Source: a virus
Strand: one strand, 5' to 3'
Length of the DNA: 25,772 bases
Virus record (IMG/VR): IMGVR_UViG_3300017605_001043
Span: 1 to 25,772 of that record
In this document: positions 1 to 23,886 of the stretch, one piece after another
How positions within the stretch are numbered: position 1 is the stretch's first letter
Layout of the letters: every line of letters begins with the position of its first letter
Made by a program: the position numbers and the translations under genes
The notes under the pieces: model-generated
Told to the model about the DNA's origin: nothing
Databases searched by the model: none
What the model saw: the letters and a program-made list of their open reading frames with translations, nothing else

Positions 1-3000
1 GCAGGACCTCGTCGCCCGGCTTGAGCTCCGGGGAGGGACCACCGTGGAGATCCCAGAGGCGCTGCTGAAGGACCTCTAGCCTATCGTTCAGCTCCGGGAA
101 TTGCTTGATAGTGGGCGCATAGGTGATGAAGCGGCGCCAAGCTTCCTTCCCGCTCTGCTTGGGATCGTTTAGCATCAGGAAAAGATGCTGCATCTGCTGC
201 TCCCCACTCAGCATCCGGAAGTCCATGTCGGTCAGGTTGGTGGTACCGATGCGCTGTTCACGGGGGAGTTTGTCTACCTCGTGCGCGAGGTCCTCGGCGG
301 CGGGAATGAGGGTATTGGTCTTGGGATCGTAGTTGATCCCGGGCATGAAGCGGTGGTTGACCACAGCTTCCACGCCGCTCTTGGTAAAGACGCCCAGTTC
401 CTGCCCGGTGCCAAGGTGGGTGACGCGGAAACGAAGGGGCGCGGTGGCATCCTCATTTCCGTCGTCGTCACGGTAGCCAATTGGTTCAATCTTGAAGGCG
501 GGATGGGGGGAGATATCTGTGCCTACCGAATGGGATGAATAGTGCCCAATGGTGGCACCGCTGGCGTCTCGGAGCTCGAAGCGGAGGGGCCGAAGGTCTC
601 CCCGCTTGGCCGCTTCCTGAAGCTGCGGGTAGCGGTGCTCAGGGTAGGCGACAATCTGCACCGACCCCGGGGGTCGCGTGGGGCCGTCCTCCGGGGTTCG
701 GCGCACCCTGCCCATAGAGGGGGGAGTCTTCTGCGGGAACGGGGGGTTATTTAGATCAACGCCTCGACCGTTGAGCTCGGCGTTGAATTGGCGGTCCCGC
801 TCCAGTAGAGTGGCGTTGTTCCCGTCCTTCTGGAGCGCCTCCCGGTTGGCGCGCCATGCCTTCAGGAGATTGTCCGTCCTGAATTGCTTCAGGTAGGGGA
901 TGGTTTGCTTCGGCGGCTCCGCCTGAAACGGATAGGGGAAGCTGCCCTGAGCGGGGTTGGGTTCGGGCTGACCGTTGGCTAGCTGGCGTTCCAGATCGGC
1001 GAGGCGGGAGATCGAAAGGCGGAGATCGTTCTGGAGGCGCTTGTCATCCGGGCGCGCCTGCAAGAGGCGGGTGATGCGGTCGATATCGGACTTGGCGGCG
1101 ACCGGGGTGAGCTGGTCACCTTGCTTGCTGTTCACCAAGCGGGAGGCGACGGCTTGCGGGAGCTGGCCGCGACCGAAGAGCTGCATCTGGCCAAAGGCAT
1201 CCTCGTGGAGAGCGTGGGTGCGGTTCGGCGGCGGGGGGATGTAGAGGGAGCCGTCTGGACTGCGCTGCATATACCGAAAGAGGGAGGAGAGCTCCGCGGT
1301 GCTCATGTTTAAGGAGCGGGCAACTTCTCCAAAGGGCTTGCGGTCGCCAGCCACCCTACCGTTGTGGTCCACACCAAGGAGATCGCGGACAGCCGCGGCC
1401 TTGGTGGGCGTGAGGCGGTCCAGCTCCTCCACCAATTGAGCGCGGTTTTCCTCGCCCGTTCCAACAAGATGGCCCCAGAGCTCGGTGGGCAGGAGGGAAC
1501 GCTTGCGGCCGCTGACTTTGGCGGGCTGCTTGGGGGCGGCTGGGACGGCGGTGGCGGTCGGGATGGTGGAGGAGGGCGCTTCCGGAGCAGCCGTAGGCGG
1601 AGGCGGCGCAGCCATTCCCTGACCGGGGGTGATCACCTCGGCGGTGTTGTGCCCAGACTTGGACATCCCAGAGGTGTCCTGCCGTTCCACTTCGGTGATG
1701 TCGGTGCCCTTCGCTTGGGCAGACTTGACGATATCGCGGGCGGCGTTGAGAGCCACTGTCCGAATGGAGGGTGGGGTGCTCTTCTTCTCCATGTGGGTGA
1801 GGATGTCGGTGATCACGCGGGTGACGGCAACGTCGCGCTTGGTACCGCCCTCCGGGGCGGCTTCCGAGAGAGCAGCGCCATGTTTCTCCGCCACCATATC
1901 GAAGATGCGCTCCACTTGAGACTGCACGTCGTCGTAGCGCTCCGGGTTGGATTCGGCGAGACGGAACATTTCCGCTTGGAGATCGTCGAAGGACGGCCCG
2001 GGAGGCTTGTCAAAGAGCTGCGCATCCATGGTCTCAAGAGGGATAGATTTGGTGCCTAGCTGGCCGAAGGGGACTCGGTGCTCATAGGGCACCATGCCCG
2101 GCAGGACGAGCTGACCGGTGGGTTCCTGAAGTGGCGGAGTCATCCCCGGGACGGTGTAGGCGGGGCCGAGCAGGCCACGCTCAATGGCACCGTAAGCGTC
2201 CGGGCGCTCCTTGAAGAGCCCCTCCGGGTCGGTCAGGTAGCGATCAAATGCATGGGCGAGGTCCTCGGCTGGGTTGCGGCGGTAGTGGTCGATGTGGAGA
2301 TCAAAGGCTTCGGATTCTGAAAGAGGCCGCATCCAGATGTCATTGGCGCCCTTTTTGAAGCCGGAGCGGCTGGTGAAGACATAAGGCTGATCGTTTAGAA
2401 CGTCGATTCGGCTATAGGGGTTGCCAGTAAAACTTTCATCGAAATTTAAGCCGGTTTCATTCGCCGGCCTCCACCCAAGTGCCTGCGCAGCCTGCCCTCC
2501 CCGGAGGGGATCCGCCGTCACCCAAGCGTGCTGGTACTCATGGGCGATGGTCTTGGCGAGGGCGTGCCAGATGTCCCGGGTGCCGTACAGATCCTTGTTC
2601 CACTTGGCCGAACTGCTGTTGGTGTTCAAAAAAATGGTGCCCGTATCTGCGTTCCACTGTCCGAAGACGCTTTCCGGGCCGTAATCGTCCATCACTATGT
2701 GGCGGACCGCTCCCTTGTATTCATCCGGAAGCACCGAATGAATAGCGCGCCACGCCTTCTGGATGTCTGCTTCCGATGCAGATCCCGGCCTGATCATTCC
2801 CACCTCCCCGTTGTCACCGAGTGAGATTTCTTTCAGGGGCTTATCGAGGTTTCGCGGCGTATATGAAGCCGGCTGGACGGCGGGGCCAGCAGGAAATGGG
2901 GAGTTAAAGGTGCCATCGGGTGCGTCTGTCAGCGGGGCTTGCCCGGGCGGTGCTTGCACCTTAAACAAATCCGCAGCAGCCTTCTGATCAAGGACGCGCA

Positions 3001-4351
3001 TCTTCTGAAGATCGCGCTGGTCCACCACTTGGTAGGAGATGCCGGCGCGCTGGCGGTCGTTCACGCGGCGGACCACGGCGGCGCCATCCGTTGAAAGGTG
3101 GTGCAGCTCGAAGATTTGCGAGTTGCCAGCCTTGTCGGTTTTGACGAGCAGATCCCCCGGGGCGATGCGGCCCACCTTGGGAAGGGTGGCGGTGCGTGGA
3201 GAGGGGGGCTCAGCGAGCATGATCGGCGAACCGGGGCTGTAGTCGCGCAGCATCCCGTTCTGAAGGCGTACGGAATAGCGGCGCTTCCCGTTGGCGTCTA
3301 GATCAACGGACTCAATGGTGCCCGGCATCTGCATCCGCCCCTTGGTAGGGTGGCTTACGATGAAGGGGACGGTGTCTCCGGTCTGCGGGGCGTGGCCGTT
3401 CAGGAGCGCGTTGAGACCAACGTCCCAGATCGCCTGATCGTAATAGGGATTTCCGGTCAGATGAAAGGGAGCAGTAGACTGGGGTTTGCCGGTCAATGCC
3501 TCAGAGGCCGCCACCTGTGCAGCTCCGACCGCGGTTGCACCCCCGATCATACGCAAGGGATTGGGGGTCCATTTGCCCTCTAGGATACGGGCGTCGCTGA
3601 CCGTCTGGGTGGGACCAAGGAGGGCGCCGAAACCGGCGGCCATACCCAGCTGGGTGGGGTCGATTTTACCGGAGGCGATCAGCTGCGAAAGGGAATTGGT
3701 GACGGCGCTAGTGGCGGCGAAGAGACCGGCATTGGTGACGTTGGGAAAGGTTTTACCGGTGGCGATTTCTTCTAGGATGCGGCCAGCGCGGCCGGCCTTC
3801 AGAATGGTGGAGCCAGCGGCGGCTCCGCCCTTTAGCCAATTGAGAACGGTTCCGAACGACTTAATCCCACCGAAGAGATTGCCAGCCTCGAAGGTGGTGC
3901 GGCCCACTGCATCCTCGGGCGGGGGGATGAGCTTGTCGGTGAGGCCGAAGGTGCGGCCGGAAGCGAATCCCTGCGCGGCCCGCCCAATGCCGGCGAGCTC
4001 CGGACCACCGGTGGGGGACGGCTCCGCGCCGACCGAGGACTGGCCGAACATGTCGTTAAGTCCTTGACCGATCTCGTCCGGAGAGAGGCGCGTCTGGGCG
4101 AGGTTGGTGGCGAAGGGATCCGAGGGAACAGGGGGAGCTTGTGGGACTGGATCGGTAAAGAGCCGGGCCTGTGCAGAGAGGGCGTCGCCGGCGGGAGCGG
4201 CGTTCTCTCCGAAGAGAGAAGCCTGCTCCTTGAGGATACGGGCACGCTCCTCGGTTTCAGCCGCAGGCCCCTTTAGTTTAGCGAGGGCGAGGCGCTCTTC
4301 AGGGGTAGCCATGGCCCAGTTGAGATCCTCCTTCGAGGGCGGCGACGGCAT
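1..4351 (-). CDS. Very large internal virion (ejection) protein with metallopeptidase motif, partial
   Basis: The frame is open from the ATG at 4351 to the window edge: 1450 codons and no stop, so the C-terminus is missing. The N-terminal third is Ala/Gly-rich and helical (about residues 110-260). About residues 330-420 look like small beta domains. Residues 604-608 read HEYQH, an HExxH zinc-binding motif, and E696 in PAEDLAHAF is a plausible third zinc ligand, as in gluzincin-type peptidases. A Pro/Ala linker lies near 913-940, and a helix-turn-helix-like stretch near 1000-1030 (GEVARSLNMSTAELSSLF). Size, position at the end of the virion operon and multidomain make-up suggest a protein ejected with the DNA, like the polyvalent proteins described in phages. 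The start lies 6 bases after the preceding stop and has no good Shine-Dalgarno site. The zinc motif is seen directly; peptidase activity and ejection are inferred. Confidence 0.85.
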   Translation of the reverse strand, partial: MPSPPSKEDLNWAMATPEERLALAKLKGPAAETEERARILKEQASLFGENAAPAGDALSAQARLFTDPVPQAPPVPSDPFATNLAQTRLSPDEIGQGLNDMFGQSSVGAEPSPTGGPELAGIGRAAQGFASGRTFGLTDKLIPPPEDAVGRTTFEAGNLFGGIKSFGTVLNWLKGGAAAGSTILKAGRAGRILEEIATGKTFPNVTNAGLFAATSAVTNSLSQLIASGKIDPTQLGMAAGFGALLGPTQTVSDARILEGKWTPNPLRMIGGATAVGAAQVAASEALTGKPQSTAPFHLTGNPYYDQAIWDVGLNALLNGHAPQTGDTVPFIVSHPTKGRMQMPGTIESVDLDANGKRRYSVRLQNGMLRDYSPGSPIMLAEPPSPRTATLPKVGRIAPGDLLVKTDKAGNSQIFELHHLSTDGAAVVRRVNDRQRAGISYQVVDQRDLQKMRVLDQKAAADLFKVQAPPGQAPLTDAPDGTFNSPFPAGPAVQPASYTPRNLDKPLKEISLGDNGEVGMIRPGSASEADIQKAWRAIHSVLPDEYKGAVRHIVMDDYGPESVFGQWNADTGTIFLNTNSSSAKWNKDLYGTRDIWHALAKTIAHEYQHAWVTADPLRGGQAAQALGWRPANETGLNFDESFTGNPYSRIDVLNDQPYVFTSRSGFKKGANDIWMRPLSESEAFDLHIDHYRRNPAEDLAHAFDRYLTDPEGLFKERPDAYGAIERGLLGPAYTVPGMTPPLQEPTGQLVLPGMVPYEHRVPFGQLGTKSIPLETMDAQLFDKPPGPSFDDLQAEMFRLAESNPERYDDVQSQVERIFDMVAEKHGAALSEAAPEGGTKRDVAVTRVITDILTHMEKKSTPPSIRTVALNAARDIVKSAQAKGTDITEVERQDTSGMSKSGHNTAEVITPGQGMAAPPPPTAAPEAPSSTIPTATAVPAAPKQPAKVSGRKRSLLPTELWGHLVGTGEENRAQLVEELDRLTPTKAAAVRDLLGVDHNGRVAGDRKPFGEVARSLNMSTAELSSLFRYMQRSPDGSLYIPPPPNRTHALHEDAFGQMQLFGRGQLPQAVASRLVNSKQGDQLTPVAAKSDIDRITRLLQARPDDKRLQNDLRLSISRLADLERQLANGQPEPNPAQGSFPYPFQAEPPKQTIPYLKQFRTDNLLKAWRANREALQKDGNNATLLERDRQFNAELNGRGVDLNNPPFPQKTPPSMGRVRRTPEDGPTRPPGSVQIVAYPEHRYPQLQEAAKRGDLRPLRFELRDASGATIGHYSSHSVGTDISPHPAFKIEPIGYRDDDGNEDATAPLRFRVTHLGTGQELGVFTKSGVEAVVNHRFMPGINYDPKTNTLIPAAEDLAHEVDKLPREQRIGTTNLTDMDFRMLSGEQQMQHLFLMLNDPKQSGKEAWRRFITYAPTIKQFPELNDRLEVLQQRLWDLHGGPSPELKPGDEVL

Positions 4352-7410: not shown

Positions 7411-8894
7411 ACGTCGAAATTAATCTCCCCACCGCTTGAGGGGGCTTCACCGCTGACCGAGGCTGAATAAGTTGCACCCCCATCTACCGAAACCCCTAGG
7501 CTAATGGTGGGCGTGGCGCCGCTGGAGCGCAGCCGTAGTGTAACACGGGAGAGGGTTTTGTAATCAACGCCGGTGATGGGACGGCCGTTCTGGCTGATCT
7601 GGCCGGCCATGTCTTCATCCTTGGATTCCCAGTAGGCTGAGATGCCCGCACCGTTGTCGTTTGGCACGAGATAGGTGTATTCATCAGTGGTGAGGTCGGC
7701 CATGCCGAGAATAGAAGTAGGGGCACCGACGACATCCAAGGCATCCCAGCTGACGGAAGCGTAATCCTCCCACGTTCCGGTGACGGTGATCCAAGTGGGA
7801 CCGCCAGAGGTAACAGCCCGGAAGCCGCAGGTTGCCCCTTGGGGAAGGTCCCAAATTGTCCAGTGACGCTCAGCCCAGTTAAAGACGTAGGCACGGCTGG
7901 GAACGGTGCTGGAACCAACGGGAACGAATAGCCAGTATTCGCTGTTCAGGGGTGAAAGGACAGAAAAGACTTGTCGAAGTGCGCTGGCGTTGATGCCACG
8001 AAGATCCGGACGAATTGGCTCCCCAATGGGGCGGAAGCCGGCACCGTCGAATTCGTAGACATCGTCGTAACTAAGGAAAAAATGGCGGTCGAAGGCAGAG
8101 GCCACACTAAAGGGAGCGATGGCGCCAACGTCTCGGCTTCTCAAGGAGAACCTAATGGGGAGCTCTGGGATGCCGGTTTCGCTGCCGATAAAGATGGAGC
8201 GCTCCTTGTAGATAACAAGGTTGCTCCCCAGCATGAGAAGCTTGGTGATGGGATCTGGGGTTTCTACAAGATCCACCTCTCCATAGGTGGCACCGCTCCA
8301 GGTGTCGGCATCGCCATCCGCGCTCCACGCAAAGCGGCTCCCGCGGATCTGGGTGCCATCGTAGATGTTTCCAGCGCAGAGGCGGTTGGCAAATGTACAA
8401 AGAGTGCGGGCGGAGCCGGGGGCGGCTGCTATATTAGAGAGTGTGGTCCCATCCCACTTTAGGATTTCTTGGGTGGCGATGCTATTGAACCCGTTGCTAA
8501 TATAGAGGTTATCGATGCGGGTGGGATTGGGGGCGATTGCTGCATCGTATGGATCAAGGGCGGTACCTACCATGGTGACGGCCCCGGTATTATCGGTCCA
8601 CGCACCGCCGGCGGTGCTGGTGTAGAATTTTCGGTTCCCTCCTGCCGCTCCACCAGTCACGGCAATTAACTGGGTGGTCCCCGCCTCCTGCTTATATTCA
8701 AAGCCGCTCACGATGGTTCCGGCGAGGGTGCCGGAAGCGTAAGCGCGAGACCCCGGGCGCTTTTGGAGGACGCCATCTCGAATGCGGATATTGGAGAGCG
8801 CGGGGGAAAACTGGGGTGGACGGCGCACTTGGTCTAGGCCACGGTGGACTCCCCCATTAAGGGGGTTAAGGGAGGTGCGGTTATATCTAGCCAA
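7299..8894 (-). CDS. Tail/neck stabilisation protein (P22 gp10-like, beta-propeller type)
   Basis: 531 residues from a TTG at 8894; the frame also allows an ATG at 8948 (549 residues), but that overlaps the previous gene by 62 bases. The N-terminal pattern, with a Leu/Arg/Pro-rich lead and then IRIRDGVLQKRPGSRAYA, is typical of packaged-DNA stabilisation proteins of short-tailed phages that close the neck. It is followed by repeated beta blades with Trp/Tyr/Asp turns (FAWSADGDADTWSGATYG, VYEFDGAGFRPIGEPIRPDL). The C-terminal 150 residues form a separate beta-sandwich-like domain. The family call rests on the repeat pattern and the position after the adaptor. The start is uncertain because no strong Shine-Dalgarno site exists for either codon. 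Confidence 0.75.
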   Translation of the reverse strand: MARYNRTSLNPLNGGVHRGLDQVRRPPQFSPALSNIRIRDGVLQKRPGSRAYASGTLAGTIVSGFEYKQEAGTTQLIAVTGGAAGGNRKFYTSTAGGAWTDNTGAVTMVGTALDPYDAAIAPNPTRIDNLYISNGFNSIATQEILKWDGTTLSNIAAAPGSARTLCTFANRLCAGNIYDGTQIRGSRFAWSADGDADTWSGATYGEVDLVETPDPITKLLMLGSNLVIYKERSIFIGSETGIPELPIRFSLRSRDVGAIAPFSVASAFDRHFFLSYDDVYEFDGAGFRPIGEPIRPDLRGINASALRQVFSVLSPLNSEYWLFVPVGSSTVPSRAYVFNWAERHWTIWDLPQGATCGFRAVTSGGPTWITVTGTWEDYASVSWDALDVVGAPTSILGMADLTTDEYTYLVPNDNGAGISAYWESKDEDMAGQISQNGRPITGVDYKTLSRVTLRLRSSGATPTISLGVSVDGGATYSASVSGEAPSSGGEINFDVWLTGTKFRIRIANSTASEQFPQVEEITLHYHVRGEK

Positions 8895-9198
8895 GGTAAA
8901 CCCACGCGCCGCCAACGGAGCCTTGAAAGTTTTGGCCGGCGACCTCATCGCTGACGCAGATTACCGCTCCCTCTCCGGCGGCGCCAGCGGTAGGCTTGGT
9001 GGCGATTGTATAAACGCTCAGACGAAGCTCCCCGGAGAGGGCCTGAGGAAACTGGTGCTGATGGGTGGAAAACGATACCTGAAGGGACTTCACTAAATCC
9101 CCAAGCCAGCCAACTAGACTGCGGCTGTCCTCAGCTGCGGAAGGCGGAGCCGGGAGCTGAACAATCCTCAAAGAGGGGGCCTTGGCCGGGGGGGCCAT
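8887..9198 (-). CDS. Small phage protein, unknown function
   Basis: 103 residues. The start is in a TAAATG junction with the holin-like gene, with GGAGC nearby. The N-terminal 30 residues are Pro/Ala-rich. The C-terminal part (GAAGEGAVICVSDEVAGQ followed by GGAWVYLG) resembles the ends of small virion-associated phage proteins in which a Gly-rich loop precedes a Trp-containing strand. It lies between the lysis genes and the stabilisation protein. It may be a small virion or appendage protein, but no firm assignment is possible. Confidence 0.7.
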   Translation of the reverse strand: MAPPAKAPSLRIVQLPAPPSAAEDSRSLVGWLGDLVKSLQVSFSTHQHQFPQALSGELRLSVYTIATKPTAGAAGEGAVICVSDEVAGQNFQGSVGGAWVYLG

Positions 9199-9408
9199 TT
9201 AGAAGCTCCAGCGAGAAATGACAGTCAGAACAAGGCTGGCAACAAAGCCGGCCGCTGCCCCCCAGATGGCGGACTTGGTTTTGAGAATCGCCACGTCCAC
9301 ACGAAGGGCCATGACCTCAACGCGCATCGCGGTGAGCTCGATTTTATTCTCCTCCAAACTGCGCAGGACCAGACGCTGGTATTCGGGCCAGCCGTTCTCG
9401 CCGCTCAT
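9199..9408 (-). CDS. Holin-like / XhlA-like small membrane protein
   Basis: 69 residues. Residues 10-45 form a charged heptad-like helix (LRSLEENKIELTAMRVEVM) and residues 47-65 a single membrane segment (AIWGAAAGFVASLVLTVI) followed by a short basic tail. This layout, a coiled coil and then one C-terminal membrane helix, matches the XhlA-type proteins that act with phage lysis enzymes. Its start overlaps the lysozyme stop (AAATGA), giving an endolysin-holin pair. Holin activity itself is inferred from topology and neighbourhood. Confidence 0.7.
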   Translation of the reverse strand: MSGENGWPEYQRLVLRSLEENKIELTAMRVEVMALRVDVAILKTKSAIWGAAAGFVASLVLTVISRWSF

Positions 9409-9890
9409 TTGACAAGGTCTCCGTAAGCGGTGACTACTGCGTTGATGTAGAGCGGATTCACATGGGCGTCATCCGGACGCCCGGTGTTGTAAGCATCTGC
9501 GATACCCGCAACGGTAATACGGGGGAAGCGATCAAGGATACGACGGTTCATATAGCGGACCACAAGGGGGAGCGCGATGGTGTCGTCGTTTAGATCGGTG
9601 GGCTTCCCATTGAATCCCAGCTCCCGGGCCGTGATGTACATGATCTGCCAGCTTCCAAATGAACAGTGGGCAAGGCAGCCGTATTTCTCGGAGGCGGCCC
9701 GAAGGTCATCTCCGTTGGGAGACTTGTAGTAGAAACCCCCATAGCAATAGGCGGACTCATGCCGGGGACATTCCCGGCGCTCACCTTTTTGACTCTCCAC
9801 CTCGGCAATCGCAACCAGTAGAGCGGCCCCATCGATTCCCTCTGGAACGTGGAGATCAAGGGCGGCCATCTGGACATCTGATTTGTCCAC
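9405..9890 (-). CDS. Lytic transglycosylase / lysozyme-like endolysin
   Basis: Predicted to cut the peptidoglycan glycan strand, either for lysis or entry. From the GTG at 9890 the protein has 161 residues. It carries the SLT-type signatures in order: AIAEVES with candidate catalytic E32, GSWQIM at 79-84 (equivalent of the GxxQI motif) and AYNTG at 133-137. Four cysteines between 40 and 76 could form disulfides. The GTG is preferred because GGAG lies 6 bases upstream and it directly follows the previous stop. Longer in-frame starts (10022, 10136) would read through the 3' end of the upstream gene. The overlapping holin-like gene downstream supports a lysis role; a virion-associated role remains possible. 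Confidence 0.8.
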   Translation of the reverse strand: MDKSDVQMAALDLHVPEGIDGAALLVAIAEVESQKGERRECPRHESAYCYGGFYYKSPNGDDLRAASEKYGCLAHCSFGSWQIMYITARELGFNGKPTDLNDDTIALPLVVRYMNRRILDRFPRITVAGIADAYNTGRPDDAHVNPLYINAVVTAYGDLVK

Positions 9891-9892
9891 AT

Positions 9893-10531
9893 CTAGCTCC
9901 AAGTTGGTGTAAATGGTTCCGGTTCCACCCAAGAGGGCGAAGAGGGCGAGGCGGGGGACCACGCGGAGGAGGTGCCGCCAAATCTTACCCAGATATCCGG
10001 GCGGTAGTCGATTTCTGCCCATAGTGCGGTGACAATTCCCTGTGAGGTGCCGCCCTCGTAGATACCAAACTCGATCATACCGGCCTCGAAATCGGAGACA
10101 TCCCAGATTTGCCCGGTAGTGGGATCGGTGTTCCAAGTCGTAAGTATATCTTGGTAACTGGTCGTGAGGGTAAGCTGGTTGGCGGCGTCCATGATGATGG
10201 TAGAGGGGGCGTTGCGGTAGACAAATAGTTTAGCCACGCCCGTTCCAACACCACCCCGTCTAATCCTCATTCCTACCCGGATGCTATTGATGTGGGTTCC
10301 GAATCCGATACCCAGCGATGCCGGGGAGACCATTTTAAACGACCAGCGTGCGGGGTCGGGAGCGCCTAGACCAAAGGCGATGAAACTATTGTCATCGTCA
10401 TAGGTGGTGGGATCCTCGTCGATTACAAAGGGGGCGAGGGCGATAAGCTGGTTAACACCGCCGCTAGTCACCGTCCCGGTAAGTGGGATGTGGGAACCGT
10501 TTTCAACCGGGTAGAGAGAAGTGACGGCCAT
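9893..10531 (-). CDS. Virion/appendage beta-sandwich protein, unknown
   Basis: 212 residues, rich in Thr, Ser, Gly and aromatic residues, with the alternating pattern of beta-sandwich proteins (for example INSIRVGMRIRRGGVGTG and AGMIEFGIYEG). The C-terminal tail is Ser/Pro/Trp-rich and probably flexible. It starts with ATG overlapping the upstream stop (TAATG). With its two upstream neighbours it forms a run of three beta-rich proteins just before the lysis genes, which suggests tail fibre, appendage or head decoration components. No family recognised. Confidence 0.75.
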   Translation of the reverse strand: MAVTSLYPVENGSHIPLTGTVTSGGVNQLIALAPFVIDEDPTTYDDDNSFIAFGLGAPDPARWSFKMVSPASLGIGFGTHINSIRVGMRIRRGGVGTGVAKLFVYRNAPSTIIMDAANQLTLTTSYQDILTTWNTDPTTGQIWDVSDFEAGMIEFGIYEGGTSQGIVTALWAEIDYRPDIWVRFGGTSSAWSPASPSSPSWVEPEPFTPTWS

Positions 10532-11858: not shown

Positions 11859-12500
11859 TTAGCGGGCTCTCCAAGTCGTAAGGGGGCCGAGAACGGGGGC
11901 AGCGACCTCATCGCTATCACGGAGGGCTTCCCTGATGCGGTCGAGGCGGGAGGCGATCATTTTGTCCAGCTTGGCTTCCTCACGGAGAGAAGCATCGTTC
12001 TGGTCCATCCAGCTTAGCATTCTGGCAAACGCCCCTTGAATAATGACTTCATCCCACTCTCGGGGGAGGTCGGAGACAGAGGTGGTTGCTGAAAGCGGAG
12101 GAAGGCGCTTCATATAGCGCATCTGGATAACCGTGCTACTGTCATCCGGAGTGGGGGAGAATGTGATATCCCCGCCGTACCAAATGTATTCCCGAGGAGG
12201 ACCGTTGGAAACAGAGCCCTTGCGATCCAACGCCTGATGGGACCGCTGTTTAAGGGGGACGGTGTCGGTGACATTACGGAGAAAAATGGGGTAGACAAAG
12301 TCAGTCGGCCCGATATAGGTAGAGATTCCCTCGGTGAGAACGACGCTGGCGACTCCTTGGTTCTCTGGTAGGAGAATGCTGGTCACAAGGCTGTCATAGG
12401 ACATCTTGACGGCGTCCGTGATAAGGCTATCGACATTGGTGGGGTTACCAATGCGAAACTTAACGTGGGTCTCCATTGTACTGCGCGTAAGGTCGCCCAT
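11859..12500 (-). CDS. Head-tail adaptor (P22 gp4-like)
   Basis: 213 residues. The helical arrangement with an early VDSLITDAVKMSYDSLVTSI helix, a central beta region with FVYPIFLRNV and YIWYGGDITFSP, and a late WDEVIIQGAFARMLSWMDQ helix matches the small adaptors that attach below the portal in short-tailed phages. A charged C-terminal helix would contact the portal. It stands alone after a 30-base gap, with no Shine-Dalgarno site but an extended -10 element just upstream. Known family behaviour: it forms the ring on which the stabilisation protein and tail assemble. Confidence 0.7.
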   Translation of the reverse strand: MGDLTRSTMETHVKFRIGNPTNVDSLITDAVKMSYDSLVTSILLPENQGVASVVLTEGISTYIGPTDFVYPIFLRNVTDTVPLKQRSHQALDRKGSVSNGPPREYIWYGGDITFSPTPDDSSTVIQMRYMKRLPPLSATTSVSDLPREWDEVIIQGAFARMLSWMDQNDASLREEAKLDKMIASRLDRIREALRDSDEVAAPVLGPLTTWRAR

Positions 12501-12530: not shown

Positions 12531-12788
12531 CTACCCGGGTTCCCCGTCTACAATAGGGGCAGGGGGATCAAGAAACCGGATACCCACACGAGCGCCGGTA
12601 TTGGGATCGATAGCGGTTTCGGAGAGCGGGAAGGGAAATCCGGAGCGGGCACAGATGACCCAAGGTTCCTCGGCGGCGCGGCCGGTGATGCCGGAGTCCT
12701 CATCGGGGTCCGGGGCGGAGTCGGCGGGGTTCTCTAGCTGGCTGTCACCAGCGCCCGGCTGGGTAGTATCCCACCAGACGCGAGCCAT
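12531..12788 (-). CDS. Small phage protein with N-terminal RVWWDTT motif, unknown
   Basis: 85 residues, acidic and Pro-rich, low in hydrophobic residues and probably poorly structured except for two short strands near PWVICARSGFPFPL and RVGIRFLDPP. The first nine residues (MARVWWDTT) resemble RIWWDRTG near the start of the 563-residue beta-helix protein, suggesting a shared binding or docking peptide. The start overlaps the upstream stop (TAATG), with AGGA nearby. No function recognised. Confidence 0.65.
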   Translation of the reverse strand: MARVWWDTTQPGAGDSQLENPADSAPDPDEDSGITGRAAEEPWVICARSGFPFPLSETAIDPNTGARVGIRFLDPPAPIVDGEPG

Positions 12789-14731
12789 TAGTCGATCCTG
12801 ATGGGGGGCGAGGGGAGACCGGCGGAAATCCAGACTGGATTGGGCTCGCCCGGCGGCGAGAGTCCATAGTCTTCGTCGGCACCGATTTCATTGCCTGCAC
12901 CGTGAGGACGCGCCTCCCCGTCGATGTCATCCGAGGGCCCGGTAGCATTCCCGGTGTCAAAGGCGGGGTTTCCAACGTTGGGCTTCAGATGGAGATCCCA
13001 GTGACTCTTGAGACCGCTGGCGATATCGAGAAAGAAAGCGGTGGTTGGGGCGCCGTTGTCGGAGCAGACGTTTCCAACCCGGGTGCCGCCGTTGTTGAAG
13101 CCGGCGATGCCAGCACAATTATAGGTGGTTCCGTTGTTGTTTACGATATTCCCGCCCAGATTCTCATTGGTAATGAGATTGCTAATAATGCGGGATGTGC
13201 TGGCATTGGCGGTGATGGTCAGGCCGACGGTGGGGGAGTTTTCCTTGTTGGAACGGACGACGAGGTTGTTGCGAACCACGTAGTCTACGCCCGCGTTCAG
13301 ACCGTCGATCTTGATGCCCCACTTTGTATTATAGACGGTGTTATTCTGGATGATGGCTTCATTTCCGGTGGCACGGGCGAGCTGAACGGAAATGGCGGGC
13401 TGGGAGGCGTTATCCCATCCACGCAGGAACCAGAGCATGTTGTTCTCGATTAGAACATTGTTGGCCGCGTTGGGGTTGTTAAAATGCACCCAGAGCGGGG
13501 GGTCCTGAAACATGCCATTGATGCCACTATCGTAGTTTCCATCAATCTGGCCGAAGATGCGATTTCGGCGGATGGTGATGTCTTTGGTGGTGACGGTGCT
13601 GGCACCGTTGTTCCCGTTGTTGACGTTGATGGCGCCTAGACAACGACCGGAAGATTTATCTACCCGGTAGATCCCCGGACATCCTATGATGTTGTCTTCA
13701 ATGGTAACACCAACGTGGTTGTCTTCAATCGAGATCCCTTGATAGAAGTCCAGCATGGTGTTGCGGCGGAAAATCTTGTTGTAATAATTGAAGTCGTTGC
13801 TGATGATGTCAACGTTGTAGAAAAGGCTGTCTTCTACAATCGAGGAACCCGAGATGGTTCCGTTGTTGTTTCTAAAGGTGCTGGCGCAGGTGTGGTGGAC
13901 GGAGATGTGGCGGAAGGTAACGGTGTCCACCAAGTCGTTGATAAAGAACATGTTACCGCCCTGATCGTAGCAATCTGGATCGGCAACGTTCTGCGCGGAC
14001 CACATCTGCCAAGACATCTTGCGGACTTCGATACCGTCGAAGATGAAATTATTGGGCCCGTGCGTCATGTTCCAAATGTCGGTGGCACCGTAGAAACGCT
14101 CGAAAATAAGGTGACGCACCCCGTCCATATCCCAACGGCCATCGAATGTCCAATAGGAGCGAGCGGCGGCGAAGGTGAGGACACCGCGGACATCCACGGT
14201 GGACTCCGGATAGGCGTTGTTATTGGAGTCGCCGTTTAGAATAACGGTGTCGCAGCTGTCTACGTCGCAGAACGCCTTGACGCTGATGGGGTTTCCAAGG
14301 GTTCCGCTGGACAAAAGGGTAAGCCAGTAGGTACCGCTGGTGGTGAGATTATAGGTAGCAGTGCTGGCGCCATCGCAGGCGTCCGCACAGAGATAGACGT
14401 TGTCGGCTGGAGCGAGCTCTGCTGTCAAAAGGGTTCCTGCACCCCCATCTTGCATGGCGGCGAAGGAGACGCGCTGTGAACCGGGAGGGCGCGTGGAGGT
14501 CTGTTCAGCCAAACCCTCCGGATCAAGGCACCAAGGGTTTGCGGAGCTACCCCGGGGGACGGCGGCGTTGGTACATCCATTGAATCCCACCCCACCGTTA
14601 TCGCAGGCAGAACCTGCCGGGGCGGTGTTGGTGGGCCAGCCGCAGTTGGAGAAGTAGTAATCCGTAGCGAGGGCGGGAGCGGCCCAGCCGGTAAAGATGA
14701 GGAGAAAGAGGAGAACAGCTCGCCTAATCAC
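12788..14731 (-). CDS. Exported right-handed parallel beta-helix protein with Sec signal peptide
   Basis: 647 residues from a GTG that overlaps the previous stop by 8 bases. Residues 1-22 are a clear Sec signal peptide: RR, then the hydrophobic AVLLFLLIFTGWAA, then ALA before T23. The mature part has about 14 cysteines, unlike the virion neighbours, consistent with an oxidising extracytoplasmic setting. The body shows repeated short strands with Asn turns (IIQNNTVYN, VLIENNMLWF, TIEDNIIGC), typical of NosD/pectate-lyase-like beta-helices. The end (DDIDGEARP and EIGADE) resembles the closing motif of bacterial extracellular beta-helix proteins. It could modify or mask the cell surface, act as an exported depolymerase, or be a virion spike with a signal-like N-terminus. 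No catalytic set can be fixed. Confidence 0.75.
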   Translation of the reverse strand: MIRRAVLLFLLIFTGWAAPALATDYYFSNCGWPTNTAPAGSACDNGGVGFNGCTNAAVPRGSSANPWCLDPEGLAEQTSTRPPGSQRVSFAAMQDGGAGTLLTAELAPADNVYLCADACDGASTATYNLTTSGTYWLTLLSSGTLGNPISVKAFCDVDSCDTVILNGDSNNNAYPESTVDVRGVLTFAAARSYWTFDGRWDMDGVRHLIFERFYGATDIWNMTHGPNNFIFDGIEVRKMSWQMWSAQNVADPDCYDQGGNMFFINDLVDTVTFRHISVHHTCASTFRNNNGTISGSSIVEDSLFYNVDIISNDFNYYNKIFRRNTMLDFYQGISIEDNHVGVTIEDNIIGCPGIYRVDKSSGRCLGAINVNNGNNGASTVTTKDITIRRNRIFGQIDGNYDSGINGMFQDPPLWVHFNNPNAANNVLIENNMLWFLRGWDNASQPAISVQLARATGNEAIIQNNTVYNTKWGIKIDGLNAGVDYVVRNNLVVRSNKENSPTVGLTITANASTSRIISNLITNENLGGNIVNNNGTTYNCAGIAGFNNGGTRVGNVCSDNGAPTTAFFLDIASGLKSHWDLHLKPNVGNPAFDTGNATGPSDDIDGEARPHGAGNEIGADEDYGLSPPGEPNPVWISAGLPSPPIRID

Positions 14732-15044
14732 AGTAGATGATCATCGTGGCCGGGGTAGCCCAAGCCGTCCCGATGGCATCCATGTAGAGCCCGCGGCACC
14801 AGATGGGCTTCTCCGGCGTGAAAGTAAACGTATAGCTGGCAGAGTTGACGTTGATGAAGCGGAATTTCACGTCCCCGGAGGCGTTGTCTTCCCGGAGGAC
14901 GATATTCCCCGCCCCCGCCCCGGAGGCTCCCATGACTAGGATCGCCTTGATGGCGATTAGCTCAGGGGTTTTCTTGATCTCCCGCGCACCGGTGGTGTTC
15001 AGGTCGATGACAATTTCCCGAAGTCCGTAAAGGCCGTCAGCCAT
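14724..15044 (-). CDS. Small beta-rich virion-associated protein, unknown
   Basis: 106 residues with regular beta strands (IVIDLNTTG, IKAILVMGASG, VKFRFINVNSASYTFTF, GLYMDAIGTAWATPATMIIY), the pattern of a small beta-sandwich such as a decoration or fibre-cap protein. The junction with the preceding gene contains AGGTAGAAAAATG; the same GTAGAAAAATGGC string stands before the gene at 17798. It lies between the two beta-helix genes and may help one of them attach to the virion. This is inference from position. Confidence 0.7.
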   Translation of the reverse strand: MADGLYGLREIVIDLNTTGAREIKKTPELIAIKAILVMGASGAGAGNIVLREDNASGDVKFRFINVNSASYTFTFTPEKPIWCRGLYMDAIGTAWATPATMIIYCD

Positions 15045-15048
15045 TTTT

Positions 15049-16740
15049 CTACCTGAGAATCACCCAATCTGCGGTGGTGGTGGAGGCGCCGTTGCTGGAC
15101 GTGATGAGGAAGCCGCTCGGATGCTTGAGGGTGACCGAGAAGGTCTCGTTGGCGACGTTGGTGGAGGTGACGGCGACCCGGTAGCTAGAATCCGGCTGGG
15201 TGTTGATGGTCTGGGTGCCGAGCTTGGCGGTGCCGACGGCGGTGGAGCCGCGGTAGTTTTCCTCAAGCGAAAGGGTGGTGGCAGAAACAGCTCGGATACG
15301 GGTCCACGCAGAGTCGGTATCGGTAGAGAGCCTGACAAAATCACCCGGCTTGAAGATGGTATCGAAAGAGACTCCACCAGTTACAGAGGTGGAGACATTG
15401 CTGAAAGAGGCGGCGACCTCAGAGGTGTTGCCCCCGTCGGTGATCAGAAGAATCCGGGCGACGCCAGCCGCGAGGGTAGCTCCACCGGCCTGCCGGCCCG
15501 GTTCAACGGTAGTGAAGCTGCCCACTGCAATGGCGTTCGCGCCCGCGCGCGTCCACCCACCGGCAGAGCTGATATTCCCAGTCCACTTGATGGTCGGGGA
15601 GCCAGAGCCGGCGCTGTGGATAATGTTGCCGCGCTTGTGACCGGTGCCGAGAGTTTCCTTCAGGGAATTCCCAGTTATATAGTGGACCTGAGAGTTATTA
15701 GTAGATGCTAGCTGAAGGACACCAACGGTACCGGTTTTCTGTGTGATGCTGCCCGCCTCGATGAGCAAGTTGTTGCCCGCGAGCGTGAGGGAGGCGGCGG
15801 CAGCGGTGGAATTAATACGGGCAATTAGACAGATACGGCTGCTGGCATCGAAATCGCCAGAGACAACGGCGTGAAGCGTAGTCCCCACCACTTCAACGGA
15901 GTGGCCGCTTCCTACACTCACGCAGCAAACGCCCGTGGACGTAGTGGAGGTATCCTCGGCGTGAAGGTGGGAGCCCCAAATTTGAATGGGCCCGTTGGTC
16001 TGAAGGGCGAAGACCGGGACGGCATTTCCAGCGAACTGCGTGGTATCACTACGCTCACCACGAAGATCCGAGGAGAAAATATGCCACGTCTCGGACGCGG
16101 TACGAATACCGTTGGTGCCTACGAAACGGCTATTGAAGACCTCAATGAGGTTACCGGCCGTGTTGGTCTGTGCCCACACCGAATAGGTGATGGCCGTGCA
16201 CTTCATGGAGTCAAAGCGCACGTCGTCCGTGTTGTCGAGGAGCGCGGCGGTGGAGCTGGCCGTCCCCACGGTGGAGGCATTAGCGCCGGTAAGTGCGTCA
16301 AGCCAGATTCCACGTAGGCAGATATTCGTAGAGCCGGAGAGATCGAGCAGGGTGGAAAGCACGCCGGTCGTATAGACAGAGGAGGCGAAGCGGATTACAG
16401 TGTGCTCAAAGCCCGCCCCCTCTAGATTCACACCCACCGCGGAGGTGAGAGATAGACCGGTGTTCACGGTGTAAAGACCCGGCATAAATCGGACCGTGAC
16501 TGGGTTGGTGGCCGTCCCCCGGGCCTTGGCTGCCGTGAGGGCAGCCTGAATCATGGGGGAGGAGTCTACCGTGCCAATCTGGGGTGTGAGCGGCGGGCTC
16601 ACCCAGATGGTGCGGTTATCGTCGATGACAAACGGGGTACCCGGCTGGACGGTGCTATCCGAGAGACCGGCGACATCAAGACCGGCTCCGGTGCGATCCC
16701 ACCAGATTCGGTCGTAGCGACTAAAGGTAGGGTTACCCAC
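15049..16740 (-). CDS. Tailspike-like parallel beta-helix protein (pectate lyase 3 type)
   Basis: 563 residues from a GTG with GGAGG 6 bases upstream. The N-terminal 60 residues hold RIWWDRTG and an Ile/Val/Pro-rich segment, probably a virion-binding part. Residues about 60-120 show the usual entry of a pectate-lyase-type helix: DSSPMIQAALTAAKARG, FMPGLYTVNTGLSLTS and VNLEGAGFEHTVI. Coils follow to about residue 390, then a beta domain ends the protein. Phage proteins with this fold are commonly tailspikes that bind or cut surface polysaccharide. Its place among capsid decoration genes, before the adaptor, also allows a head-fibre role. Catalytic residues were not identified. Confidence 0.75.
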   Translation of the reverse strand: MGNPTFSRYDRIWWDRTGAGLDVAGLSDSTVQPGTPFVIDDNRTIWVSPPLTPQIGTVDSSPMIQAALTAAKARGTATNPVTVRFMPGLYTVNTGLSLTSAVGVNLEGAGFEHTVIRFASSVYTTGVLSTLLDLSGSTNICLRGIWLDALTGANASTVGTASSTAALLDNTDDVRFDSMKCTAITYSVWAQTNTAGNLIEVFNSRFVGTNGIRTASETWHIFSSDLRGERSDTTQFAGNAVPVFALQTNGPIQIWGSHLHAEDTSTTSTGVCCVSVGSGHSVEVVGTTLHAVVSGDFDASSRICLIARINSTAAAASLTLAGNNLLIEAGSITQKTGTVGVLQLASTNNSQVHYITGNSLKETLGTGHKRGNIIHSAGSGSPTIKWTGNISSAGGWTRAGANAIAVGSFTTVEPGRQAGGATLAAGVARILLITDGGNTSEVAASFSNVSTSVTGGVSFDTIFKPGDFVRLSTDTDSAWTRIRAVSATTLSLEENYRGSTAVGTAKLGTQTINTQPDSSYRVAVTSTNVANETFSVTLKHPSGFLITSSNGASTTTADWVILR

Positions 16741-17876: not shown

Positions 17877-18782
17877 CTACGGAGTGCCGTCCGTGCCGTC
17901 AATGCCCCTCCACTCGCCCCAATCGGACTTGGCGATGGAGAAGTAGGTCTTGTGCTTGGCGTCGCCGGTGTCGAAGTCGTCACCGCTGGCAAACACGGGC
18001 TTCTCGCGCCAGAACATGTTGATATCATGGTCGGAAGCGAGGAGGAACCACGCCGTGGTGCTGGTGAGGAAGTGCCACTCGCGGAACATGAGGCCCTCGT
18101 CCCGGATGGCATTGATGGTATTCTGATTGGTATAGGGGAGCTCCGGGGTCTTCAGGATCTCCTTGGCGACATAGCGAAGATCCACCGGGATGACGAGGAG
18201 ACGCGGCTTGATGGGGGTGTTGAAACCACGATCAGAAACCGTCTTCTCCATGCGAATAACGGCAGCCTGCAAGCCAGCCACCGAAAGGGCCACATCCGTG
18301 GAGGGGCGGTTGGCATAGGTACCACCGCCAAGCAGCGCGTGGCTGGTCGAGCAGAGGGACTCCCCGGTGACGAAGCCGGCGAAGCTGGTCGAGAAGGCGT
18401 TGTTATATGCACTCGCCCCGAGGATGTTGACACTCTGCTTGACGGAGCGCCCAAGGTGGGATGACATCTTCTTCAGCTGCCCGTAGCGCTCATCGCGGAC
18501 GGCCTCGTGCGTGGACCGGAAGCCCATGCCAAAGTTAACCGGATCGTAGCGCTTCGTGGTCCCCGGGATGGGGGCATCGTAGCTGATGGGCTGGCCTTCC
18601 GGCTTCTGAGGAATCAGCCCGAAGTAGGCCATCTTGTAGTCCGTGAAGTAGGGCTCGTCCATCGTCTCGACATTGACGAACGGGCCATACTCGTCGGCAA
18701 CCATGGCCATGTTATCGGAGAAGATCCGACGCAGGCCGGGATCCAGCAGGCGGGAAAGAGTGGTGGTGACAACAGTGGACAT
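17877..18782 (-). CDS. Major capsid protein (HK97-fold type)
   Basis: 301 residues. It has the layout of phage major capsid proteins related to the Mu gpT-like group: an N-terminal segment (LSRLLDPGLRRIFSD) leading to an extended loop, then the long-helix region near LQAAVIRMEKTVSDRGFNTP, and then the strand and linker KPRLLVIPVDLRYVAKEIL followed by NTINAIRDEGL. It sits between scaffold-region genes and decoration genes. The start is in a TAAATG junction with GAGGG upstream. This fold forms the icosahedral shell; the family call is by pattern and position. Confidence 0.85.
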   Translation of the reverse strand: MSTVVTTTLSRLLDPGLRRIFSDNMAMVADEYGPFVNVETMDEPYFTDYKMAYFGLIPQKPEGQPISYDAPIPGTTKRYDPVNFGMGFRSTHEAVRDERYGQLKKMSSHLGRSVKQSVNILGASAYNNAFSTSFAGFVTGESLCSTSHALLGGGTYANRPSTDVALSVAGLQAAVIRMEKTVSDRGFNTPIKPRLLVIPVDLRYVAKEILKTPELPYTNQNTINAIRDEGLMFREWHFLTSTTAWFLLASDHDINMFWREKPVFASGDDFDTGDAKHKTYFSIAKSDWGEWRGIDGTDGTP

Positions 18783-22311: not shown

Positions 22312-23886
22312 TCAGTACCCACCCACCAGATTCTTACCCGCCCGTCTGGCCTTGTTCGCCCAGTCCAGCGCCTCGTCCCTCCCCTTTCTGCCCTCATGGC
22401 GCCTAAAGATCCAAAGCTGGTCGCTGAGCGAGAACGCATCCAGAATATCACGCGGCGTAGTGGGGTCCGGGAACCAGCTATATTCCTCGATCCAGTCCGC
22501 CATCTCCCGTCGAATAAAGGTGCGGCCCGCGGCGCAAGTCTCCCCGACAATCTGGTTGATCCTCGCTTCTTTCGCCCCTGCACTCTGTGCCCCCTTGACC
22601 TCCACGATGGGAAGCCACTTGGACTTCTCCTTCGCCATCCGGTCAAGGCTCCCCATCAGGAGCTTTGCATATGTAACCGCTTCAACCCCCACTTGCATGG
22701 GGCGCCATTTATCATAAATATTGTAAACATCATGCAGGGCCTCATAAGGGTCCTTGCGGAGGCCCACCGCATCTAGGATGAAAATTCTTCCAATAGGATC
22801 AATCCCCGTCACCACGATGCCCGTCCTATCGGAGCGACTGCCGGCGCTCGCCGCCGGATCCATGACCATGTAGACAAAGAGCTCGTCCCGTTTGACCGTA
22901 GTCCCATCGTCTAGTATCAAATCTCCATCGCTCTGAATCTGGTAGTAGCGCAACCAGCTCAACCGGAAGGCGGAATTCTCCGCGTCCTTCGGGTCATTCA
23001 TATACTGGCAGGCGTATTTAAAGGGGCCCAGCTTGGCCCGAATTTTTTCTAGCTCCTCCAGTGGAAATCTCTCCGGCCACACCGGCTTGCCCGCTAGCGG
23101 ACCCTCATCATGGATCGCCTTGTGGTGCATGATGAGACAGTCGCTCTCATGCTCTCGGATCCACCCATTCACATCCCGCCGCCCCCACCGGTTCCCAATA
23201 GTATCCAGCCAGTCCCGGGTCGGCTCAACAAGGAGCGGAAACGCATACTGATGCCAGTCGATGCGCTTCTTGACCTCGATTTCGCTCTCCGCAATCGTCT
23301 CATCCACGAGGTCGTCCTCAATAATCCCCCGGACATGGAGCCCCGTCATCTTTCCGCCCACACCGAAGGCATAGATAGACGGTCCGGGCTGCTCCGCCCC
23401 ATGGACGCGCATCTGCATGGTGTTCCAGATTGTTGCCTTATAGTCGGGCGGGATCAGCTCCGGAAAGAGCCACTGGAAGAGTTTGTTATCTGTAAACTCA
23501 TGTTGGATCGCCTGAAGGTTCAGGGAGGCCAGCTCGGCGCTGCTCTGCACCAACAGCATCGTCTCGTTCGCACCGTAGAACATCGGCGGCGCCGGCTTCT
23601 GAATCAACCTCCAGATCGGCTTCCCCCTTGTTCCGATGGTCGTCTTCAGGTGACCGCGCGGCCACTCCAGCAGCCTGCGTCGAATCAGTGGGTCTTGGAT
23701 CTCGCTGCAAAGCTGCCGGTGAAAGGTGGGCGTCAGATCCCGGTTCCCCAGCACCGCCTTGCAGAAGAAGTAAAGGCTCGCCCTCGACTTCTGCCTCAAT
23801 TGCTGCCGGATCTCCTCCGGGTCCTGCTTGGCTTCCTTCCCCAACTGCCGTGCGAATTCTGCTGTCTTGATCATCTTCCGCCGCAA
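22312..23886 (-). CDS. terL: Terminase large subunit
   Basis: 524 residues from a TTG; an ATG at 23874 (520 residues) is the alternative, with GGCGGAAG touching it. The packaging motor and nuclease: Walker A-like WPRGHLKTT at 75-83, Walker B IIEDDLVDE at 188-196, the coupling motif near TIGNRWGRRD (229-238), and an RNase H-like nuclease with D343 (VMDPAAS), E402 (VGVEAV) and D483 (ILDAFS). The GHLKTT form is typical of the Terminase_6/large-terminase group. An in-frame TAA lies 9 bases upstream of the TTG, so the start cannot be earlier. It overlaps the small-subunit frame. Confidence 0.92.
   Translation of the reverse strand: MRRKMIKTAEFARQLGKEAKQDPEEIRQQLRQKSRASLYFFCKAVLGNRDLTPTFHRQLCSEIQDPLIRRRLLEWPRGHLKTTIGTRGKPIWRLIQKPAPPMFYGANETMLLVQSSAELASLNLQAIQHEFTDNKLFQWLFPELIPPDYKATIWNTMQMRVHGAEQPGPSIYAFGVGGKMTGLHVRGIIEDDLVDETIAESEIEVKKRIDWHQYAFPLLVEPTRDWLDTIGNRWGRRDVNGWIREHESDCLIMHHKAIHDEGPLAGKPVWPERFPLEELEKIRAKLGPFKYACQYMNDPKDAENSAFRLSWLRYYQIQSDGDLILDDGTTVKRDELFVYMVMDPAASAGSRSDRTGIVVTGIDPIGRIFILDAVGLRKDPYEALHDVYNIYDKWRPMQVGVEAVTYAKLLMGSLDRMAKEKSKWLPIVEVKGAQSAGAKEARINQIVGETCAAGRTFIRREMADWIEEYSWFPDPTTPRDILDAFSLSDQLWIFRRHEGRKGRDEALDWANKARRAGKNLVGGY

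Follow-up and report, generated by a model that had tools for sequence, protein, structure and literature searches.

Why would a phage fit a Sec export signal to a product of its virion operon? The fibres and spikes of tailed phages are assumed to be produced and put together within the cytoplasm, and everything that a lytic phage makes there is freed at lysis anyway. An export signal therefore points to a protein that either acts before lysis or folds outside the cytoplasm. The question is raised by a 25,772-nucleotide stretch of viral DNA (IMG/VR record IMGVR_UViG_3300017605_001043, positions 1 to 25,772; hereafter the window), in which a gene for a 647-aa protein (12788 to 14731, minus strand) lies among virion genes and opens with what appears to be such a signal.

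The signal-bearing ORF starts with GTG, and the plus strand of the same interval holds no reading frame. An in-frame TGA 9 nt 5' of the GTG closes the frame and the next ATG, GTG or TTG is codon 48; with no start before that codon, the signal lies inside the only sensible reading of the ORF. A later start that removes the signal had been named as a possible objection, and none was found nearby: starting at codon 48 would open a gap of ~140 nt where the gene now overlaps the stop of its upstream neighbour by 8 nt. The 3' end overlaps the following gene by 1 nt. Because the start overlaps the upstream stop and no clear Shine-Dalgarno precedes the GTG, translation is probably coupled to that of the upstream gene. 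A consensus scan for sigma-70-type sites found no promoter or terminator at the borders of the gene, which, together with the overlaps on both sides, suggests that it is expressed with the operon.

The N-terminus of the protein reads MIRRAVLLFLLIFTGWAAPALA followed by TDYYFSNCGW; the first of these segments has two arginines, a hydrophobic core free of charged residues, and ALA ahead of the probable cleavage site. Signals were called not by SignalP but with a simple home-made heuristic, which misses some obvious signals (for example in L021, in L018 and in a 251-aa ORF of phage G005) and accepts some false ones (for example the tape-measure N-terminus in L194). By this heuristic, the true N-terminus has the positive n-region, the hydrophobic core and the AXA site of a Sec/SPI signal peptide, predicted to span residues 1-22 (14666 to 14731, minus strand) with cleavage between ALA and TDYY. 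When this N-terminus was shuffled, 1.7% of the shuffled sequences passed the heuristic and 0 of 20,000 were as strong. Among the distinct six-frame ORFs from all loci, 177 of 11,864 passed and four, the 647-aa protein among them, were as strong; within the window two of 131 ORFs passed, and only the 647-aa protein was strong. The preliminary description had claimed a Sec signal from the paired arginines, the core and the ALA, and the features are indeed present, with a very low probability of chance occurrence in both the shuffles and the ORF survey.

The same description had placed the gene in a phage virion operon, and its surroundings agree. The window carries a terminase large subunit (22312 to 23886, minus strand; phrog_38, 7.5e-71), which marks the packaging/virion operon, as well as a portal, a capsid, an SU10 adaptor and a tail/stabilisation-type protein. 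The 647-aa gene occupies a variable slot that separates the capsid/cement genes from the tail adaptor, bordered upstream by the major capsid protein (17877 to 18782, minus strand) and downstream by the adaptor of SU10/Pam1 type (11859 to 12500, minus strand; PF24175, E 3.5e-16). The window capsid shares 26-34% identity with the capsids of Alcaligenes phage QDWS535, Planktothrix phage Pag-Yong1, Caulobacter phages and Manatee Spring phages, whose gene order runs terminase, portal, further genes, capsid, cement-like protein, variable slot, adaptor. The content of the slot in these relatives ranges from a handful of small genes to as many as a dozen, annotated tail fibres included, and related phages keep their fibres and spikes there. 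In eight annotated phages with related capsids, the slot proteins that were tested all lacked a signal. Searches for relatives of the window terminase and tail protein, and of the nozzle and fibre of phage G019 (see below), gave almost nothing new.

The 106-aa ORF just upstream, whose end runs 8 nt into the signal-bearing gene (14724 to 15044, minus strand), resembles small slot proteins of L220 and L219. Beyond it, a 563-aa protein without a signal peptide (15049 to 16740, minus strand) is pectate-lyase/tailspike-like by sequence pattern, with no Pfam or PHROG match, and is probably a conventional spike; its weak local similarity to a spike of L050 is not significant. On the other side, an 85-aa ORF (12531 to 12788, minus strand) matches, in place and partly in sequence, a small ribbon-type ORF found just ahead of the adaptor in several Pam1-like phages, L220 among them (L231:20012-20257, L233:13645-13887, L220:9748-9990). 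This ORF encodes a zinc-ribbon-like CxxC protein, most of whose cysteines have been lost in the window phage.

Neither Pfam nor PHROGs returned a match for the 647-aa protein, and no docking domain was recognised after its signal. AlphaFold without an alignment was uninformative (pLDDT 33) and was set aside. We then used an alignment of the protein with 13 phage and bacterial relatives, which places an N-terminal TYYV-type cap, helix repeats and a C-terminal D.DG..RP...IGA.E motif. The resulting model is of low confidence (mean pLDDT 46, pTM 0.51), with a regular strand pattern and a pLDDT of 60-80 for much of residues 310-520. VIA-align gave Z scores of up to 17.1 over residues ~98-522, and the matches listed are right-handed parallel beta-helices, RbmB first (Z 17.1), then PfbA, NosD, AlgE epimerases and tailspikes. 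The parallel beta-helix that had been read from the sequence is borne out by these structural matches of a low-confidence model, and we assign the predicted right-handed helix to approximately residues 97-571 (13019 to 14443, minus strand). Foldseek against PDB or BFVD gave nothing at E<=0.001, and a PDB sequence search with the protein gave chance matches only. Both adhesins and lyases occur among the fold matches, no enzymatic motif or active site was identified in the protein, and the common fold does not settle its function.

Behind the helix, residues ~586-619 (12872 to 12979, minus strand) resemble the C-terminal motif of the choice-of-anchor Q family (NCBIfam NF041518), at E 0.0023 and 18.2 bits against a cut-off of 25 (5e-6 and 22 bits in a one-record search). 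Like the members of that family, the protein combines an N-terminal signal, a beta-helix and a C-terminal D.DG..RP.....(D/E)IGA.E motif; unlike them, it falls below the curated cut-off, which other phage relatives do exceed, ends by our reading in a short Pro-rich tail, YGLSPPGEPNPVWISAGLPSPPIRID, with no sorting or anchor signal after the motif, and is encoded in a phage virion operon. Judged by sequence, it resembles choice-of-anchor Q and we do not file it as a member.

Other features had been taken to point outside the cell. The motif (DDIDGEARP, EIGADE) had been called a bacterial extracellular type; the weak choice-of-anchor-Q match supports the resemblance, but signal-less phage relatives share the motif, which is thus no evidence for export, and we dropped it as a sign of extracellular bacterial origin. 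Signal-less family members begin at the same mature N-terminus (for example MTLYYVSTTGN or MATYYVKTTGS), and, where the N-terminus of a viral choice-of-anchor-Q protein is visible, inspection by eye shows a signal or a membrane segment in about half of the cases. Cysteine richness was likewise dropped as export evidence: the count, put at about 14, is exactly 14, but signal-less and signal-bearing viral relatives are alike in cysteine density (1.67% vs 1.71%, p=0.36). Host capture of the gene, which had also been suggested, is possible, but the comparisons do not demonstrate it. The bacterial family members, which come from Chloroflexota, Acidobacteriota, Bacteroidota and other groups, are large adhesins, most of them with signals. 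No close bacterial relative of the 647-aa protein was found, and its bacterial similarity is limited to the C-terminal motif and the helix repeats. Viral contigs, genomes and annotated phages yielded no close homologue either, and members of the family are already common across phage contigs.

Signals recur in the same place in other phages. In L220, the nearest phage found, the capsid is 35% identical to that of the window, the SU10 adaptor matches at E 3e-10, and the portal and tail protein are also similar. In the identical place (L220:7148-9745) it encodes a signal-bearing protein of 865 aa, followed by an 80-aa ORF and the SU10 adaptor. This protein probably starts MIFRKVLGTLALLVLAPLIAEGQTKTTITG, with GGAGG shortly 5' of that ATG. 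It is a tail-repeat protein with a pectate-lyase-type helix (PF12708, 1.8e-8) and thus belongs to another helix family than the window protein, yet the signal is present. Phage G005, with a P22-type capsid (phrog_283, 6e-66), repeats the order of the window with a 738-aa signal protein, a 72-aa ORF and the adaptor. Several consecutive ORFs between its capsid and adaptor have signal-type N-termini, one of them encoding a beta-helix of the choice-of-anchor-Q type and another a fibre-type protein. A Microcystis phage homologue of the first domain of the G005 fibre starts at the domain, without a signal. Since several other phages have the same arrangement, export of the 647-aa protein is likely; it is probably genuine and favoured by selection, but unevenly spread among phages.

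How common such signals are was surveyed in 80 loci gathered through the first domain of the G005 fibre, blind to signals. The expectation that phage spikes normally lack signal peptides held as a base rate, for 74 of the 80 loci have none, most beginning within a few residues of the domain, and the slots of the eight phages mentioned above have none either. A minority do carry signals, however: in 6 of the 80 loci (5 phages) a signal is joined directly to the domain. ORFs beside these signal-bearing fibre-domain ORFs have signals themselves more often (7/38 vs 24/738, p=4e-4; 6/38, p=0.002, without a tape-measure N-terminus that is likely a false positive). The set also showed a small rise in cysteines within the domain (p=0.012) that is absent over the whole protein (p=0.13). 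Among phages collected by their P22-type capsid, signals are rare (16/582 ORFs, several of them spurious). Judged by these N-termini, the trait is patchy but recurrent, in unrelated phages and on one protein class. L194, a siphophage with tape-measure and head-tail genes, has three signal-bearing ORFs consecutively, led by a 914-aa protein whose N-terminus resembles the pectate lyase PelN. In G019, a docking domain sets in at residue 22, directly after a signal; it has homologues in the tailspikes and fibres of Salmonella phage SPN1S and of Pelagibacter phages.

A few further loci are worth recording. G019 also encodes a T7 gp12-type tail nozzle (L050:14559-16937, minus strand; phrog_376, E 1.7e-185), the frame of which opens with MNTMRLGCMVFLWIASAVLAQ, a signal-like stretch that precedes the canonical LPVMQSNFTGGELSP, although translation could really begin at an internal ATG. 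In the siphophage G021, about eight consecutive ORFs (L052:6476-17058, minus strand) mostly have signal-type N-termini, and the next virion cluster (L053) holds a J-like central tail fibre, which is the place of lom in lambda. At L164:3405-7581, three consecutive signal-bearing ORFs (569, 269 and 554 aa), the last with the phage fibre domain, are adjoined by an integrase (8839-10029).

What the analysis shows is the gene and its place, the sequence features of its signal, the class of its fold, and that signals recur on related slot proteins. From these we propose that the 647-aa protein is a Sec-exported member of the variable fibre/spike slot of a Pam1-like podophage and that it acts at the cell surface before lysis, a proposal to which we give an even chance. 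The protein would be made late, together with the virion genes, would cross the inner membrane and then lose its signal, and would fold as a beta-helix in the periplasm. From there it may reach the envelope or surface of the still-living cell, where the exported helix would most likely bind or cut a surface glycan or mask a receptor. The effect could be to limit superinfection or re-adsorption, or to open the polysaccharide layer of the cell, and at lysis the protein would spread with the particles. Against this proposal stand the signal-free slots of the eight annotated phages with related capsids and the rarity of signals among phages with P22-type capsids.

We favour a surface role directed at glycans or receptors, and its main rival is delivery to the virion through the periplasm. 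The protein would then be a spike that is exported, folded in the periplasm and added to particles at or after lysis, with the signal aiding folding or withholding the spike from the cytoplasm to the last. The gene does lie in the fibre slot, and some tailspikes, such as that of P22, join finished heads in vitro. Elsewhere signals sit on virion-type modules, namely the LKQSTAV/DGVTAETGL fibre domain, the epsilon15/Pelagibacter-type docking domain of G019, the L220 tail-repeat protein with its pectate-lyase helix and possibly the T7-type nozzle, although the last could begin at its internal ATG past the signal-like stretch. The 647-aa protein, however, has no recognisable docking module, its helix family starts right after the signal as in secreted bacterial proteins, and a signal-less spike-like neighbour (15049-16740) is already there. 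On balance we consider virion delivery rather unlikely.

Still less probable, in our view, is a moron in the manner of lambda Lom, an adhesin gene captured from a bacterium whose secreted product would change the host surface mainly in lysogens. Lom has a signal peptide, and its gene, located in the midst of tail genes, is expressed during lysogeny (PMC12309495). Most bacterial choice-of-anchor-Q proteins are exported adhesins, and in L164 an integrase lies beside the signal-bearing cassette. But Lom is a beta-barrel outer-membrane protein, whereas the 647-aa protein is a predicted beta-helix coupled to the late operon. Its gene is locked into that operon by overlapping neighbours, with no promoter or terminator of its own in the sigma-70-type scan, which makes a Lom-like role less likely. 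No integrase was seen in the window, a 25.8-kb fragment, no close bacterial relative was found, and many phages carry the family without a signal. Slightly more improbable again is a signal that does not work: the stretch would be either a membrane or assembly segment that is never cleaved or an extension due to chance, and the protein an ordinary cytoplasmic spike. The signal is read from sequence features only, the GTG lacks a Shine-Dalgarno, and signal-less relatives start where the mature protein would; yet so strong a signal is very unlikely by chance, no start lies ahead of codon 48, the same-place signal of L220 follows a good Shine-Dalgarno, and signals cluster in other phages.

Among known systems, the tailspikes of P22, Sf6, HK620 and CBA120 share the right-handed beta-helix fold class and the genomic neighbourhood of the 647-aa protein, which differs in having an export signal and no recognisable head-binding domain. 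Sec export of phage late proteins is known for endolysins such as fOg44 Lys44 (PMC6116005), exported by the host Sec system as we propose here; the 647-aa protein is not a lysis enzyme. The tail-fibre-like MAT fibres of Bdellovibrio (PMC10769870) and the tailspike-like WceF of Pantoea, which uses Tat (PMC7949094), are exported too, but these are bacterial genes with export signals and the 647-aa gene belongs to a phage. In the open-access literature we found no description of Sec signals on the spikes or fibres of tailed phages. The uncultured window phage would be an example of something uncommon that nevertheless recurs among tailed phages, the attachment of export signals to proteins of fibre or spike type, which implies that these have a role outside the host cytoplasm before the burst. 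Such signals, grafted precisely onto modules in the host-recognition slot, would mean that receptor-binding proteins are deployed at the surface of the infected cell or that spikes are assembled via the periplasm. More tentatively, a minority of tailed phages might send whole fibre/spike-type sets through host Sec, to fold in the periplasm and there block receptors or be loaded onto particles at lysis; if so, tail parts would be built on both sides of the inner membrane.

Two other regions of the window deserve mention. A probable lysis pair lies within the structural operon (9199-10136, minus strand). One member, of 69 aa, is holin-like, with a membrane segment at its C-terminus; the other is Cys-rich, matches SLT transglycosylase weakly and has a hydrophobic stretch at its N-terminus. 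At 2-4351 (minus strand), a virion-type protein of 1450+ aa runs off the window; it contains a metalloprotease-like stretch (a sub-threshold HExxH family match) and is possibly an injected internal protein.
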